From: Acidilobaceae archaeon
Lineage (GTDB): Archaea; Thermoproteota; Thermoprotei_A; Sulfolobales; Acidilobaceae
DNA length: 53,113 nt
Direction: 5' to 3'
Assembly: GCA_027014125.1 (NCBI GenBank)
Contig: JALWEI010000003.1
Location: 1 to 53,113 of the forward strand
Below are positions 47,134 to 51,146 of the stretch, one piece after another. The notes beneath the pieces were generated by a model. The model was not told the origin of the DNA. It did not search any database and worked only from the letters and a program-made list of their open reading frames with translations. How positions within the stretch are numbered: position 1 is the first letter of the stretch; each line of letters opens with the position of its first letter. The translations under genes and the position numbers were made by a program.

Positions 47134-47246
<113 letters not shown>

Positions 47247-47269: not shown

Positions 47270-48412
47270 CTAGCCTTCTAGCAGGTCTATGGTCCTGACT
47301 TGGGGGCTTGGCAGGTCCGCTACCTTGCTGTACTCCTCCTCGAATGTCCTGGGGTCTCCCCTGGGGGTGGGGTTTGGGGCTCTGCCGCAGACCTCTATTT
47401 GCCTGCTGACTAAGTCGTATACTCCTATCCTCCTGGCCTCCTCCATGACCTCGTCCTTGTCGCTCCCGGCTAGTGGGCGTAGTATGGCGGCGTCTATCAT
47501 CCTGCTGATTAGGTAGAGGTTCCTTATTGTCTGGCTGGCTACCTGGCCCACGGATTCCCCTGTTGCTATAGCCTCTATGCCCTCTCCTAGGGCTATCTCG
47601 GCAGCCTTCTCCATCATTAGCCTCCTCAGTACTAGCAGCTGGTATCCTGGCTTGACTTGGCTCCTTACTATGCCTGCCACCCCGGCGAAGGAGGCTATGT
47701 ATAGCTTTGGCTTGTAGTTGTATGCGTACCTCCTTGCCAGGATCCTGGCGGCCTCAAGCGCTATCTCGAGGGCCCGGGGCTCCCCCATGTCATAGTATAG
47801 CAGGTGTACTGGGCTCCCCCTCCTTAGTAGCCTCCATGCCGCCACCGTGGAGTCGAAGCCTCCACTATAGAGGACTAGTACTGGGTCCTCGCTTCCTATA
47901 GGCAGCCCGCCGGGGCCGGGGTACACCTCGTCGTAGAGGTATGCCTGGTCTCCCCTGACCTCTATGTAAGCCGTGTACTCCGGGCTCTCGAGGTCCACGC
48001 CCGAGGCCCCCTCCCCGAGTAGCCGGGCCCCGAGGAGCCTCTCCACGTCCTTGCTAGTGAAGCTGTGGCTACCCGCCCTCCTGGCCCTGACCCTGAATAC
48101 CTTGCCTCGAACCCTTGGGGCGAAGAAGCTCGCCGCCCCTTCAACCAGCTCCTCTAGGCTCCTGAAGGCGATCCTAGCGGCTGGTGATACGCTCTTTACG
48201 CCCATGACCCTGGCTATGACCCTAGCAGCCTCTGCGGGGCTACTGGGCTCCTCCACTATAATCCTGCCCTCCACCCTGACCGGGCGGCCCTGGAGTCCCT
48301 CCCTCTCTAGCATCTCCCTTATGCCGGAGGCCAGTAGCTTCTCCATCCTGGCCCTGGTTGCCCTGCCCTTTACAGCTACCTCGGAGTACCTGACTAGTAC
48401 GACCCACTCCAC
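47270..48412 (-). CDS. thiI: tRNA 4-thiouridine synthase ThiI-like
   Basis: 380-aa protein with an N-terminal ferredoxin-like/THUMP domain (about 1-165) beginning VVLVRYSEVAVKGRATR. The PP-loop is LVLYSGGFDSTVAAW (about 176-190). The adenylation-side helices include LRRLMMEKAAEIALGEGIEAIATGES and the C-terminal motif is EVCGRAPNP with one Cys. It lacks the rhodanese domain of bacterial ThiI, as in most archaea, so the sulfur donor is another protein. Start ATG 48412. It lies beside, and antisense to, the tRNA-containing side of the genome. Confidence 0.92.
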   Translation of the reverse strand: MEWVVLVRYSEVAVKGRATRARMEKLLASGIREMLEREGLQGRPVRVEGRIIVEEPSSPAEAARVIARVMGVKSVSPAARIAFRSLEELVEGAASFFAPRVRGKVFRVRARRAGSHSFTSKDVERLLGARLLGEGASGVDLESPEYTAYIEVRGDQAYLYDEVYPGPGGLPIGSEDPVLVLYSGGFDSTVAAWRLLRRGSPVHLLYYDMGEPRALEIALEAARILARRYAYNYKPKLYIASFAGVAGIVRSQVKPGYQLLVLRRLMMEKAAEIALGEGIEAIATGESVGQVASQTIRNLYLISRMIDAAILRPLAGSDKDEVMEEARRIGVYDLVSRQIEVCGRAPNPTPRGDPRTFEEEYSKVADLPSPQVRTIDLLEG

Positions 48413-48473: not shown

Positions 48474-48920
48474 GTGGAGATCTATGTTGCATGGCTGGAG
48501 GGCTACCTCGCCATAGATCCTGGGGGGAGGGGCCTCCGTGTTAGGGGCGGCAACGCGACACTTGAGCTGGGGCTGCGGGAGATAGGCTTCCAGGGCCCCT
48601 TCGAGGGGCTGGAGGAGGTGCCCCAGGATAGGAGGGGGGAGTCTAAGGTCGTCTACCTTAGGCTCGCATTCCCCCTGAGGGGGCTCGATAGGCCTGGGGG
48701 GAGGGTTGTGAGGGTTAGTATGGACTTCTCTGTAGGCACCTTCGGCGTCTCCTACACGGTTATAGAGGGGGTGGGCCGGTACCTGACCCTGCACCCTCCC
48801 CCGGGGGCCCTTTATAAGTGGGTCACCGTGGGCGAGGACCTTATAGCGATCCACACTATAGGGAGGAGGCAGGTTTACCTGATGGAGGAGGACGGGTGGA
48901 GGAGGCTGATACTGGTCTAG
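48474..48920 (+). CDS. Uncharacterised 148-aa protein
   Basis: GTG 48474 with GGTGG 7 nt upstream starts MEIYVAWLEGYLAIDPGG. The protein is beta-rich and has no motif I recognise; it ends RRQVYLMEEDGWRRLILV. The open frame extends to 47973, but that part is antisense to thiI and has no coding character. A TATTAATAG at 48428-48436 is about 45 nt upstream. It is followed after 13 nt by the Cys-rich glycosylase-like gene, so it probably starts the three-gene cluster. Confidence 0.62.
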   Translation: MEIYVAWLEGYLAIDPGGRGLRVRGGNATLELGLREIGFQGPFEGLEEVPQDRRGESKVVYLRLAFPLRGLDRPGGRVVRVSMDFSVGTFGVSYTVIEGVGRYLTLHPPPGALYKWVTVGEDLIAIHTIGRRQVYLMEEDGWRRLILV

Positions 48921-48933
48921 GCGGGGGTGGCTT

Positions 48934-49956
48934 GTGGTGTGGATGCTGATGGTGAACGTTGACCAGGCCGAGGCCCTCGGGAGGCTCCTCGCCCCGGTCA
49001 GGGATAGGATCAGTGTCGATACCTTCACAGACACCAGGTACTACCCGCCGCCCAGCGCATCTAAGAGGGACGTCGCCATGTACTTCCTGGTAATGGTTGC
49101 CATGGACCATAGGCTCAGCAGGCCTGGGAGGCCATATGAGGGCGTGGTGGACGGGGAGAGGTACCATGGGGCGGATCTGCTATACAGGCTTGGCATGAAG
49201 AAGTACACCGAGGATCCCGGCTTCTTCGAGGCATCGAGGCTGGCGAGGGTTAGGGAGAGGGACGTGGTGAGGTGGCTCAGCGCCAGCGACGGCCGTGGAG
49301 GCATGGTCTCCCCGCCCGACCCTAGGGTTAGGGCGGAGCTGTTGAGGGATCTGGGTAGGAAGCTGGAGGCGCTCTACGGGGGCGACCCCTTCGCCCTCAT
49401 AGCAGAGTCCCGGGGCATGCTGAGGAGGGGAGTCGGGGACGGCTTCATAGACAGGCTTAAGGTCTTCAAGGCCTACCAGGACCCGGTGGAGAAGAAGGCC
49501 TTCCTCCTAGCCAAGTTCCTCGAGAGGAGGCACGTCCTGGAGGTGGCGGACCACTACAACAAGGAGGTCCCGGTTGATAACCACCTGGTTAGGATAGCTG
49601 TCAGGACCGGCATAGTGGGCCTCTCGAGGCCTATGATAGAGAAGATGGCCAGGTTCGTCCCCTTCACTGTGTGGGAAGACGTGTCCCTCAGGCTCGCCGC
49701 CAGACAGGCGTACAGGATCGTGTCCCAGGCGTCCGGCATAGACCCCTTCATACTAGACGACTTCCTATGGATGTTCGGCAGGCGCTGCTGCACCAGGGAG
49801 AACCCTACCTGTAGGGCCTCATGCAGGAGCGGGTGCAACGCCATCGGAGGCTGCAATGGAGGCGGATCATGTATATTCAGCCCCGTATGCAGGGCCTACC
49901 GGAACCCGCTCCTAATGGTGCCTGAGCACACGTTCCTGGAGACGTGGTGGTACTAG
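48934..49956 (+). CDS. HhH-GPD/Qng1-like protein with C-terminal cysteine cluster
   Basis: 340 aa. The middle (about 60-270) is helical, with EASRLARVRERDVVRWL, RAELLRDLGRKLEALYGGDP and then VPVDNHLVRIAVRTGIV. That last phrase looks like the H-x-R loop of helix-hairpin-helix glycosylases (PVDNHLxR), and the layout also recalls queuosine salvage Qng1 (DUF2419). The last 60 residues hold about nine cysteines (CCTRENPTCRASCRSGCN), enough for a metal or Fe-S site. Starts GTG 48934 or 48937; GGGGGTGG precedes. It overlaps the next gene by 13 nt. Function is inferred; I am not certain of the family. Confidence 0.55.
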   Translation: MVWMLMVNVDQAEALGRLLAPVRDRISVDTFTDTRYYPPPSASKRDVAMYFLVMVAMDHRLSRPGRPYEGVVDGERYHGADLLYRLGMKKYTEDPGFFEASRLARVRERDVVRWLSASDGRGGMVSPPDPRVRAELLRDLGRKLEALYGGDPFALIAESRGMLRRGVGDGFIDRLKVFKAYQDPVEKKAFLLAKFLERRHVLEVADHYNKEVPVDNHLVRIAVRTGIVGLSRPMIEKMARFVPFTVWEDVSLRLAARQAYRIVSQASGIDPFILDDFLWMFGRRCCTRENPTCRASCRSGCNAIGGCNGGGSCIFSPVCRAYRNPLLMVPEHTFLETWWY

Positions 49957-50924
49957 CGTTGGACTGCATAGCCTGGGCCAGGCGCCTCGCCGCGTCCACG
50001 AGAAGGAGCCTCGGGGGCTGCGACTGCACCCTACTCTCGGGCGGGGTTGATACTAGCTTCATAGCCCTGGCGCACCCGAGCCCCCGTGGAGTAACCGCGG
50101 TGACAGTCGACCTGGGCGGAGACGACGCTAGGTATGCGGGGATCGTGGCCGAGAGGCTGGGAATGGAGCATACAATACTGAGGCCCTCAAGGGAGGAGTT
50201 CCTGGAGGCCCTGGAGACTGCTACATGGCTAATCGGGAGCATCGACCCCGTCGAGATAGCTGCCGATGCGGTGCACGTTCTATCGATAAGCCACGCCTCC
50301 AGGGCGGGGTGCAGGTGCCTGGCCACCGGAGATGGCGGTGACGAGCTGTTCCTCGGCTATAGCTTCCTCTTTGGGAGGACCCGGGAGGCGTTGAGGAGGT
50401 GGATAAGCGAGATGGCCCGGGAGGCGTGGCTACCAACCCTCTACATAGCTGAGAGGCTCGGAGTCAAGGCCGTGGCTCCTCTCTATAGCGGGGAGGCCAA
50501 GAGGATAGCATTGGAGGCCCCCATAGAGTGCCTTATAGGTGAGAGGGATGGGAGGGTCTATGGCAAGTACATGCTCCGCCTCTACATTGATGAGAGGGGC
50601 CTGGGCGAGGTTGCTTGGAGGCCTAAGAGGCCCGTCACCAGCGGCTCCGGCTCCCTCCGCCTACTATCCAGCCTGGCCTCAAGTATGAGAGTAGACCCAC
50701 CGCGCGGCCTGGACTTCAAGCCGCCCAGCAGGCTCCACATGTTCCTCGCCAGCCTGCTAGCCCGCCGGGGCCCCCTGCCGGCGAGGTGCAGTGATCCCAG
50801 GCTTGCCTGCCCCGTGTGCGGGAGGTGTATGAATAGGCGGGGCTACTGTAGGTTCTGCGGCGCTGTTAGGACCCCCAGCGGGGCGGTTATGCACTATAGC
50901 GACGAGCTAGTGGCCGAAGAGTAG
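49944..50924 (+). CDS. Asparagine-synthetase-like PP-loop ATPase with C-terminal zinc ribbon
   Basis: 326 aa. The PP-loop LLSGGVDTSFIALAH (about 30-44) and CLATGDGGDELFLGYSF (about 130) match the AMP-forming synthetase domain of asparagine synthase. The N-terminal glutaminase domain is missing, so ammonia or another protein must supply nitrogen, or the substrate is different (adenylation or modification role). A C-terminal zinc ribbon (CPVCGRCMNRRGYCRFCG) ends the protein. GTG 49944 overlaps the upstream gene by 13 nt, so coupled translation is likely. It overlaps a convergent zinc-ribbon gene by 18 nt. Confidence 0.75.
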   Translation: MVVLALDCIAWARRLAASTRRSLGGCDCTLLSGGVDTSFIALAHPSPRGVTAVTVDLGGDDARYAGIVAERLGMEHTILRPSREEFLEALETATWLIGSIDPVEIAADAVHVLSISHASRAGCRCLATGDGGDELFLGYSFLFGRTREALRRWISEMAREAWLPTLYIAERLGVKAVAPLYSGEAKRIALEAPIECLIGERDGRVYGKYMLRLYIDERGLGEVAWRPKRPVTSGSGSLRLLSSLASSMRVDPPRGLDFKPPSRLHMFLASLLARRGPLPARCSDPRLACPVCGRCMNRRGYCRFCGAVRTPSGAVMHYSDELVAEE

Positions 50925-51146
50925 GTCCATAATCGACATTGCGGTGTCCTCGTCTCCTAGTATTTCCGCGTCGTATGCCTCAGTGTACCCGCACTTGGTG
51001 CATGAGACCATGTAGTACTCTAGGTGTTGCCAGTTGACGAGCCTGCTCAGTCCGGCCCCGGTGAGGGCTACCTTCCTAACCCTTGGCCGCCGGGTCCCGC
51101 ACTTTGGGCAGACCCACCTGGATGCCAGAACCTCCTCTACACTCAA
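50907..51146 (-). CDS. Zinc-ribbon nucleic-acid-binding protein (YpzJ/COG3478-like)
   Basis: 79 aa. The zinc ribbon has cysteines in VCPKCGTRRPRVRKVALTG and SCTKCGYTEAYDAEI, ending SIMDLLFGH. The phrase order closely follows Bacillus YpzJ (predicted nucleic-acid-binding ribbon): CPxCG, then TGxGxSR and CxKCGYTE. No catalytic residues. GTG/ATG start choice is 51146. Converges on the PP-loop gene with an 18-nt overlap. Confidence 0.78.
   Translation of the reverse strand: MSVEEVLASRWVCPKCGTRRPRVRKVALTGAGLSRLVNWQHLEYYMVSCTKCGYTEAYDAEILGDEDTAMSIMDLLFGH

Follow-up and report, generated by a model that had tools for sequence, protein, structure and literature searches.

Three genes of an Acidilobaceae archaeon lie so close together that they invite a single explanation. 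They stand in a 53,113-nt stretch of DNA (the window; contig C3 of the 1.82-Mb genome G000, placed in Thermoproteota by its relatives) and encode a small protein (P1), a protein of the HhH-GPD type (the HhH protein) and a protein resembling asparagine synthetase (the ATPase). The original prediction for this DNA read the trio as a possible system for modifying a base in tRNA or DNA, the glycosidase taking a base out and the ATPase activating or inserting the replacement. Here, we ask whether the three genes form one system and what each of them does. The answer that we favour, with moderate confidence, is that genes of unrelated processes came together recently, at the level of the genus: a corrinoid (vitamin B12) amide synthetase (the ATPase), an N-glycosidase of the Qng1 clan (the HhH protein) and a companion of ThiI (P1).

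Organization of the locus

The ORF calls reproduced the three predicted frames, with their positions, common strand, 13-nt gap and overlap (Table 1). This overlap, between the ATPase gene and the 3′ part of the HhH gene, spans 13 nt. The three ORFs are genuine genes and not chance frames, having homologues in many of 60 relatives. ThiI and a tRNA gene were also found nearby, as described earlier, the former by its Pfam and TIGRFAM profiles and the latter by Rfam. ARAGORN did not call this CAU tRNA, and the window contains no further Rfam match at gathering thresholds. The convergent zinc-ribbon gene downstream adjoins the ATPase gene in the congener G002 as well, as gene-order comparison revealed.

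Table 1 Features of the locus and of its encoded proteins (positions in the window)
Feature	Position	Strand	Evidence
tRNA, anticodon CAU; the anticodon loop region holds an insert (intron) of about 36 nt	47136..47243	+	Rfam RF00005, 61.1 bits
ThiI (tRNA 4-thiouridine synthase), divergent neighbour	47270..48412	-	PF02568 E = 5.9e-42; TIGR00342 E = 4.5e-74
P1, 148 aa, starting at a GTG within a longer frame	48474..48920	+	ORF call
HhH protein, 340 aa, starting 13 nt after P1	48934..49956	+	ORF call
Lys187 of the HhH protein, aligned with the KRAQ-motif lysine of Qng1	49492..49494	+	Invariant in alignment with three Qng1
Asp215 of the HhH protein, equivalent to Qng1 D231 and to the GPD Asp of DNA glycosylases	49576..49578	+	Alignment, fold match
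Cys-rich loop of the HhH protein, Cys285–Cys319: four EndoIII-type FeS cysteines and four extra	49786..49890	+	Alignment
ATPase, 326 aa, glutaminase-less PP-loop amide synthetase of the asparagine-synthetase type	49944..50924	+	PF00733 E = 3.4e-22
PP-loop motif SGGVDT of the ATPase, residues 32–37	50037..50054	+	SGGxDT invariant in family
C-terminal zinc ribbon CPVC...CRFC of the ATPase	50808..50858	+	Kept across the phylum except one clade
DUF2082 zinc-ribbon protein, convergent; shares 18 nt with the 3′ end of the ATPase gene	50907..51146	-	PF09855 E = 1.6e-20

Conservation of the trio

At E ≤ 0.001, the HhH protein is present in 48 of the 60 relatives, the ATPase in 35 (a few of these being fragments or full AsnB) and P1 in 29. 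The presence of the HhH protein shows no association with that of the ATPase among these relatives (p = 0.75). A comparison of gene order over 54 loci, the neighbourhood survey that had been proposed together with the original prediction, found the ATPase gene adjoining the HhH gene in G000 and its congener G002 and nowhere else; P1 adjoins ThiI in 14 of its 17 loci and the HhH gene in 10 of the 17. The trio is thus an arrangement at the level of the genus, not one kept in relatives, the outcome that the original prediction had named as refuting it. Joint base modification by the HhH protein and the ATPase would fit the close packing and gene overlap seen in both congeners, as well as the vicinity of ThiI and a tRNA gene. 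Against it stand the restriction to two congeners, a co-occurrence at chance level, the association of P1 with ThiI, and the company of the ATPase, which tracks CobS and sits in B12 gene clusters across the phylum. We consider this reading highly improbable, and the neighbourhood and co-occurrence surveys lead us to reject the three genes as one system.

Family and motifs of the ATPase

The ATPase family profile aligns with AsnB (PDB 1ct9, E = 7.9e-28), as well as with CarA and β-lactam synthetase. The intact PP-loop, GDGxDE motif and catalytic lysine of a PF00733 amide synthetase are all present; in the family alignment, the GDGGDE..GY core shows little or no variation, and neither do the positions corresponding to AsnB K429, R433 and K449. 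In AsnB and its relatives, K449 and its equivalents are catalytic. The PP-loop SGGxD, the GDGxDE..GY core and the equivalents of K429, R433 and K449 are common to the ATPase, AsnB (PF00733 synthetase domain), β-lactam synthetase and CarA, and AMP-forming amide synthesis would be expected of the ATPase too. The ATPase differs in having no N-terminal glutaminase domain, in its C-terminal zinc ribbon and in a linkage to B12 genes instead of genes for making amino acids or antibiotics. The protein begins at the synthetase domain and has no GATase match in Pfam or NCBIfam. A glutamine-hydrolysing AsnB was rejected, the N-terminal class II glutaminase domain with its Cys1 being absent. The early description of a glutaminase-less asparagine-synthetase-like ATPase with a zinc ribbon thus holds, all catalytic motifs being present; the CxxC...CxxC ribbon itself is missing from one clade (10 of 46 ATPase sequences). 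In one genome (G236; L249:9089-15079), the ATPase gene lies beside genes that, judged by eye, resemble a glutamate synthase in split form, its glutaminase-type subunit being encoded separately.

The ATPase and vitamin B12 genes

Of 19 loci from the order, 15 have the ATPase gene beside a CobT-CbiZ-CobY-CobD-CobS-CbiB cluster (PF02277, PF01955, PF12804, PF00155, PF02654 and PF03186, respectively), often accompanied by a DUF71 protein (PF01902). G000 has the same six-gene cluster on another contig (C38), and its ATPase gene is not beside it. Distant lineages show similar B12 company around the ATPase (L148, L149 and the representatives of families f14, f17, f19, f25 and f35), and in genome G155 the ATPase is flanked by a BtuCDF-like importer and a CbiA/CobB (TIGR00379, 511 bits). 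Together with the co-occurrence described below, this conserved neighbourhood places the ATPase in vitamin B12 (corrinoid) metabolism in nearly all relatives.

A DUF71 gene, counted by hand, adjoins the ATPase gene in 22 of 46 loci, and the motif E-x-GE-[FY]-H is present in all 21 ATPase-adjacent DUF71 proteins whose motif is readable. This motif is close to the ENGEF/YH that marks DUF71-B12 as against Dph6 (PMC3541065), which identifies these 21 proteins as B12-type. DUF71-B12 is, like the ATPase, a PP-loop ligase tied to B12 salvage clusters, but it comes from another, Dph6-like, PP-loop family. The passages on AsnB in that paper concern DUF71 fusions, and it describes no stand-alone AsnB-like partner (PMC3541065). 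In one genome that is 99% complete (G044; locus L133), ATPase and DUF71-B12 genes stand side by side and CobS was not found, suggesting that the two proteins work ahead of nucleotide-loop assembly or independently of it.

Distribution of the ATPase relative to CobS and CbiP

The ATPase co-occurs with CobS among the 60 relatives (p = 2e-6) and among 161 Thermoproteota genomes (p = 1e-23), the latter scored for ATPase matches at E ≤ 1e-40 and for CbiP by TIGR00313 at E ≤ 1e-40. Within the 88 CobS-bearing genomes of this set, the ATPase is found in none of the 18 that have full-length CbiP and in 69 of the 70 that do not; the lone exception (G152) has an ATPase fragment at the start of a contig. 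Genomes of one family are not independent, and counted by family, with families few and full-length CbiP in only three of them, the ATPase is present in 0 of 3 with full-length CbiP and in 14 of 14 without (p = 0.0015). Among CobS-bearing genomes, the ATPase and full-length CbiP are mutually exclusive. CbiZ was rejected as an explanation of this pattern: family f27 and part of family f11 have CbiZ without the ATPase.

CbiP/CobQ (TIGR00313) and the ATPase have a complementary distribution, and they would catalyse a similar type of reaction, amidation of corrin side chains. Their folds, however, are unrelated: CbiP/CobQ joins a dethiobiotin-synthetase-like ligase to a GATase_3 domain and uses glutamine, so that it would be an analogue of the ATPase at most, and no homologue.

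Family f13, whose members are probably ammonia oxidisers (an assignment inferred from L152), combines the two proteins in another manner. Its CbiP is about 278–290 aa long, has no GATase part and is directly followed by CbiB; the ATPase is always present and located away from the B12 genes. As the ATPase coexists here with a GATase-less CbiP, a mere substitution for CbiP does not fully account for this family, and its members may amidate corrins with free ammonia. Two f13 loci (L239:8858-9694 and L237:9366-10205) encode a CbiP/CobQ of about 278 aa from which the C-terminal glutamine amidotransferase domain is missing; the gene order there is CobD-CbiP-CbiB-CobS-CobY. Each of the 24 f13 genomes with a CbiP match has a short one.

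Proposed reaction of the ATPase

By homology to AsnB, the ATPase would adenylate a carboxylate by means of its PP-loop, and an amine would attack the resulting acyl-AMP. The amine would most likely be free ammonia, because the protein has no glutaminase domain, and the likely substrate would be a corrin side-chain carboxylate of salvaged corrinoids that are incompletely amidated or hydrolysed by heat. The ATPase would then do the job that the glutamine-dependent CbiP performs in CbiP-bearing genomes. Overall, the ATPase probably forms an amide on a corrin using free ammonia; we infer the substrate, the ammonia and the exact step, including which corrin carboxylate is used and whether DUF71-B12 acts in the same step or the next. 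It could instead join a different amine or act on another corrinoid carboxylate. The situation in family f13 and the G044 pair that occurs without CobS count against the proposed reaction.

A different role within B12 metabolism would be the ATP-dependent joining of aminopropanol phosphate to cobyric acid, as a partner of CbiB, or the re-joining of the CbiZ product. In many clusters the ATPase gene immediately follows CbiB, and it occurs in genomes with CbiZ, as such a role would lead one to expect. Genomes with CbiB, CobS and full-length CbiP nevertheless manage without the ATPase, G155 has it beside CbiA and an importer though CobS was not found there, and f13 genomes carry it with no CbiZ seen. 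We regard this role as unlikely and retain amidation of the corrin as the preferred reading.

The HhH protein and Qng1

The AlphaFold2 model of the HhH protein is confident (pLDDT 92.6, pTM 0.92), and its top 11 Foldseek matches are all Qng1/DUF2419 (E 7e-12 to 2e-10, TM about 0.7), with 7uk3 scoring best (E = 7e-12, TM 0.72/0.77). Matches to EndoIII, MutY and AGOG have E values of about 1e-4 or worse and TM scores of about 0.4–0.46 by query length. The kinship extends to sequence: the HhH family profile, in the kind of profile search earlier suggested for the 340-aa protein, finds Qng1 (7ugk, E = 5.9e-5), and hhalign of the family against Qng1 gives E = 1.4e-11 over 261 columns. At E ≤ 5, 17 of 23 family members match PF10343 (Q_salvage; best 3.2e-5), the window protein having no match; two archaeal members exceed the cut-off of this profile in the genome search. 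The middle protein had been called HhH-GPD/Qng1-like from the start, and these results agree. A Qng1 query against plasmids gave no match.

End-to-end alignment of the HhH family with three true bacterial Qng1 sequences, taken from genomes of the compared loci, reveals D183, K187, D215, R253, D275, W279 and an aromatic C-terminal tail in common; the N-terminal 160 residues are likewise Qng1-like. Lys187 falls on the lysine of the Qng1 KRAQ motif, which we take to be K199 of the solved Qng1. Mutants of K199 (K199C) and of D231 are named in the titles of Qng1 PDB entries. With the queuosine 5′-monophosphate nucleosidase Qng1 (PDB 7u07, 7uk3, 7ugk), the HhH protein therefore has in common the full-length predicted fold, the positions of the catalytic Asp and Lys, and the tail. 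It differs from Qng1 in being archaeal, in the FeS-type Cys loop inserted before the tail, and in the replacement of the Qng1 motif LDxxNFxFW by VAMDHRLSRPG in archaeal members. To our knowledge, queuosine does not occur in archaea. Judged by sequence and model, the HhH protein is a full-length archaeal relative of Qng1 (DUF2419) that keeps the putative catalytic Asp. Three loci of genus g8 (L113, L116 and L117) hold, at the usual place, a diverged HhH copy that has lost most of the loop cysteines and the Qng1-like tail and has kept K188 and D215.

The cysteine-rich loop

The cysteine-rich tail ascribed to the middle protein is present as described, in the form of a loop between the last helix and the C-terminal tail. 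In deep members of the family, the cysteines follow GR in the pattern C-x6-C-x2-C-x5-C, as in EndoIII (L088: GRTICVRDKPMCTKCLFKEIC). The EndoIII spacing is exact in L088 and is expanded by an insertion in most other members. Most sequences have eight cysteines, the insertion adding some and one more standing ahead of the first; six have four, and there are few intermediates. The loop is predicted to bind a cluster of the [4Fe-4S] type, as in EndoIII and MutY. The extra cysteine before the first FeS cysteine and the inserted ones are lost jointly, suggesting a second metal site that was acquired or lost in one piece; the extra cysteines may form such a site.

EndoIII, MutY and AGOG have the HhH-GPD core in common with the HhH protein, which in addition shows an EndoIII-like four-Cys loop and an AGOG-like sequence around Asp215; the fold similarity to these glycosylases is lower, and the N-terminal region and tail are Qng1-like. 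AGOG itself carries no FeS loop that we know of. The HhH protein thus bridges Qng1 and the DNA glycosylases. Another crenarchaeal FeS HhH protein is Sis-HhH-GPD of Saccharolobus (PMC11754123); it is probably distinct from the HhH protein, because the Sulfolobaceae-like family f11 is without the latter.

Candidate substrates of the HhH protein

The HhH protein would cleave an N-glycosidic bond using Asp215 together with Lys187. As substrate we lean slightly towards a nucleoside or nucleotide of 7-deazaguanine (archaeosine/preQ0). Our reasons are the alignment with Qng1, which runs through the entire chain and takes in the C-terminal tail, and the gene content of G000, which has arcTGT and, in a genome search, no true QueC. 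With arcTGT present and QueC absent, the 7-deazaguanine precursor may have to be salvaged. Loss of QueC was rejected as the explanation of HhH presence, there being a weak trend at most: 16 of 23 QueC-bearing genomes also have the HhH protein, which counts against a 7-deazaguanine substrate, as does the replaced LDxxNFxFW motif.

The protein could instead be a base-excision glycosylase of the AGOG/EndoIII type that removes an oxidised or damaged base from DNA by means of Lys187 and Asp215, with the FeS loop serving in DNA binding and the ATPase still a B12 gene. We take this to be a serious possibility, though short of an even prospect. The EndoIII-type loop after GR in deep members points to it, as do the matches of 18 of 23 members to Pfam AGOG and, in many genomes, neighbours such as Hjc, a PINA-like ATPase, PolB1-binding protein 2 and the primase large subunit; yet genes for ThiI, Trm5/TYW2 and TYW3 are neighbours too. 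The much closer fold match to Qng1 argues against it, as do the Qng1-like N-terminal region and aromatic tail, and the canonical GxG hairpin is not visible in the HhH sequence. A true AGOG was rejected, the window protein scoring 20.2 bits against PF09171 (gathering threshold 26.1) and Qng1 being closer in fold. Nucleoside or nucleotide salvage by a Qng1-clan enzyme remains the reading that we slightly prefer.

P1

P1 travels with ThiI, and its link to ThiI is no looser than its link to the HhH gene. Its model is all-β and confident (pLDDT 96), and among its relatives Trp, Arg, Lys and Tyr positions are invariant. It has no Pfam, NCBIfam, PHROG or PDB sequence match and, despite the confident model, no convincing fold match in the PDB. 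P1 may represent a new all-β fold.

Implications for corrinoid and base salvage

In the open-licence literature, DUF71 is tied to B12 salvage, and we found neither a stand-alone AsnB-like partner nor an FeS-bearing archaeal branch of Qng1 described; the novelty of both is provisional, because the search covered open-licence papers only. B12 salvage is poorly understood in archaea that are unable to build the corrin ring, and DUF71-B12, a predicted salvage gene, had no proven reaction as of a 2012 paper (PMC3541065). A physically linked second amide synthetase, distributed opposite to CbiP, supplies a testable reaction and substrate.

In its widest form, which we put forward tentatively and consider doubtful as a whole, our reading is that Thermoproteota, including probable ammonia-oxidising archaea, would amidate or reamidate corrinoids not with the glutamine-dependent CbiP but with an asparagine-synthetase-like ligase that depends on ammonia and is often paired with DUF71-B12, and that an FeS-bearing archaeal branch of Qng1 would be a living link between DNA glycosylases and queuosine nucleosidases that serves archaeosine salvage. 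FeS-bearing relatives of Qng1 bear on the source of the 7-deazaguanine base in archaea that have arcTGT and no QueC, and on the evolution of nucleoside-salvage enzymes from base-excision enzymes.
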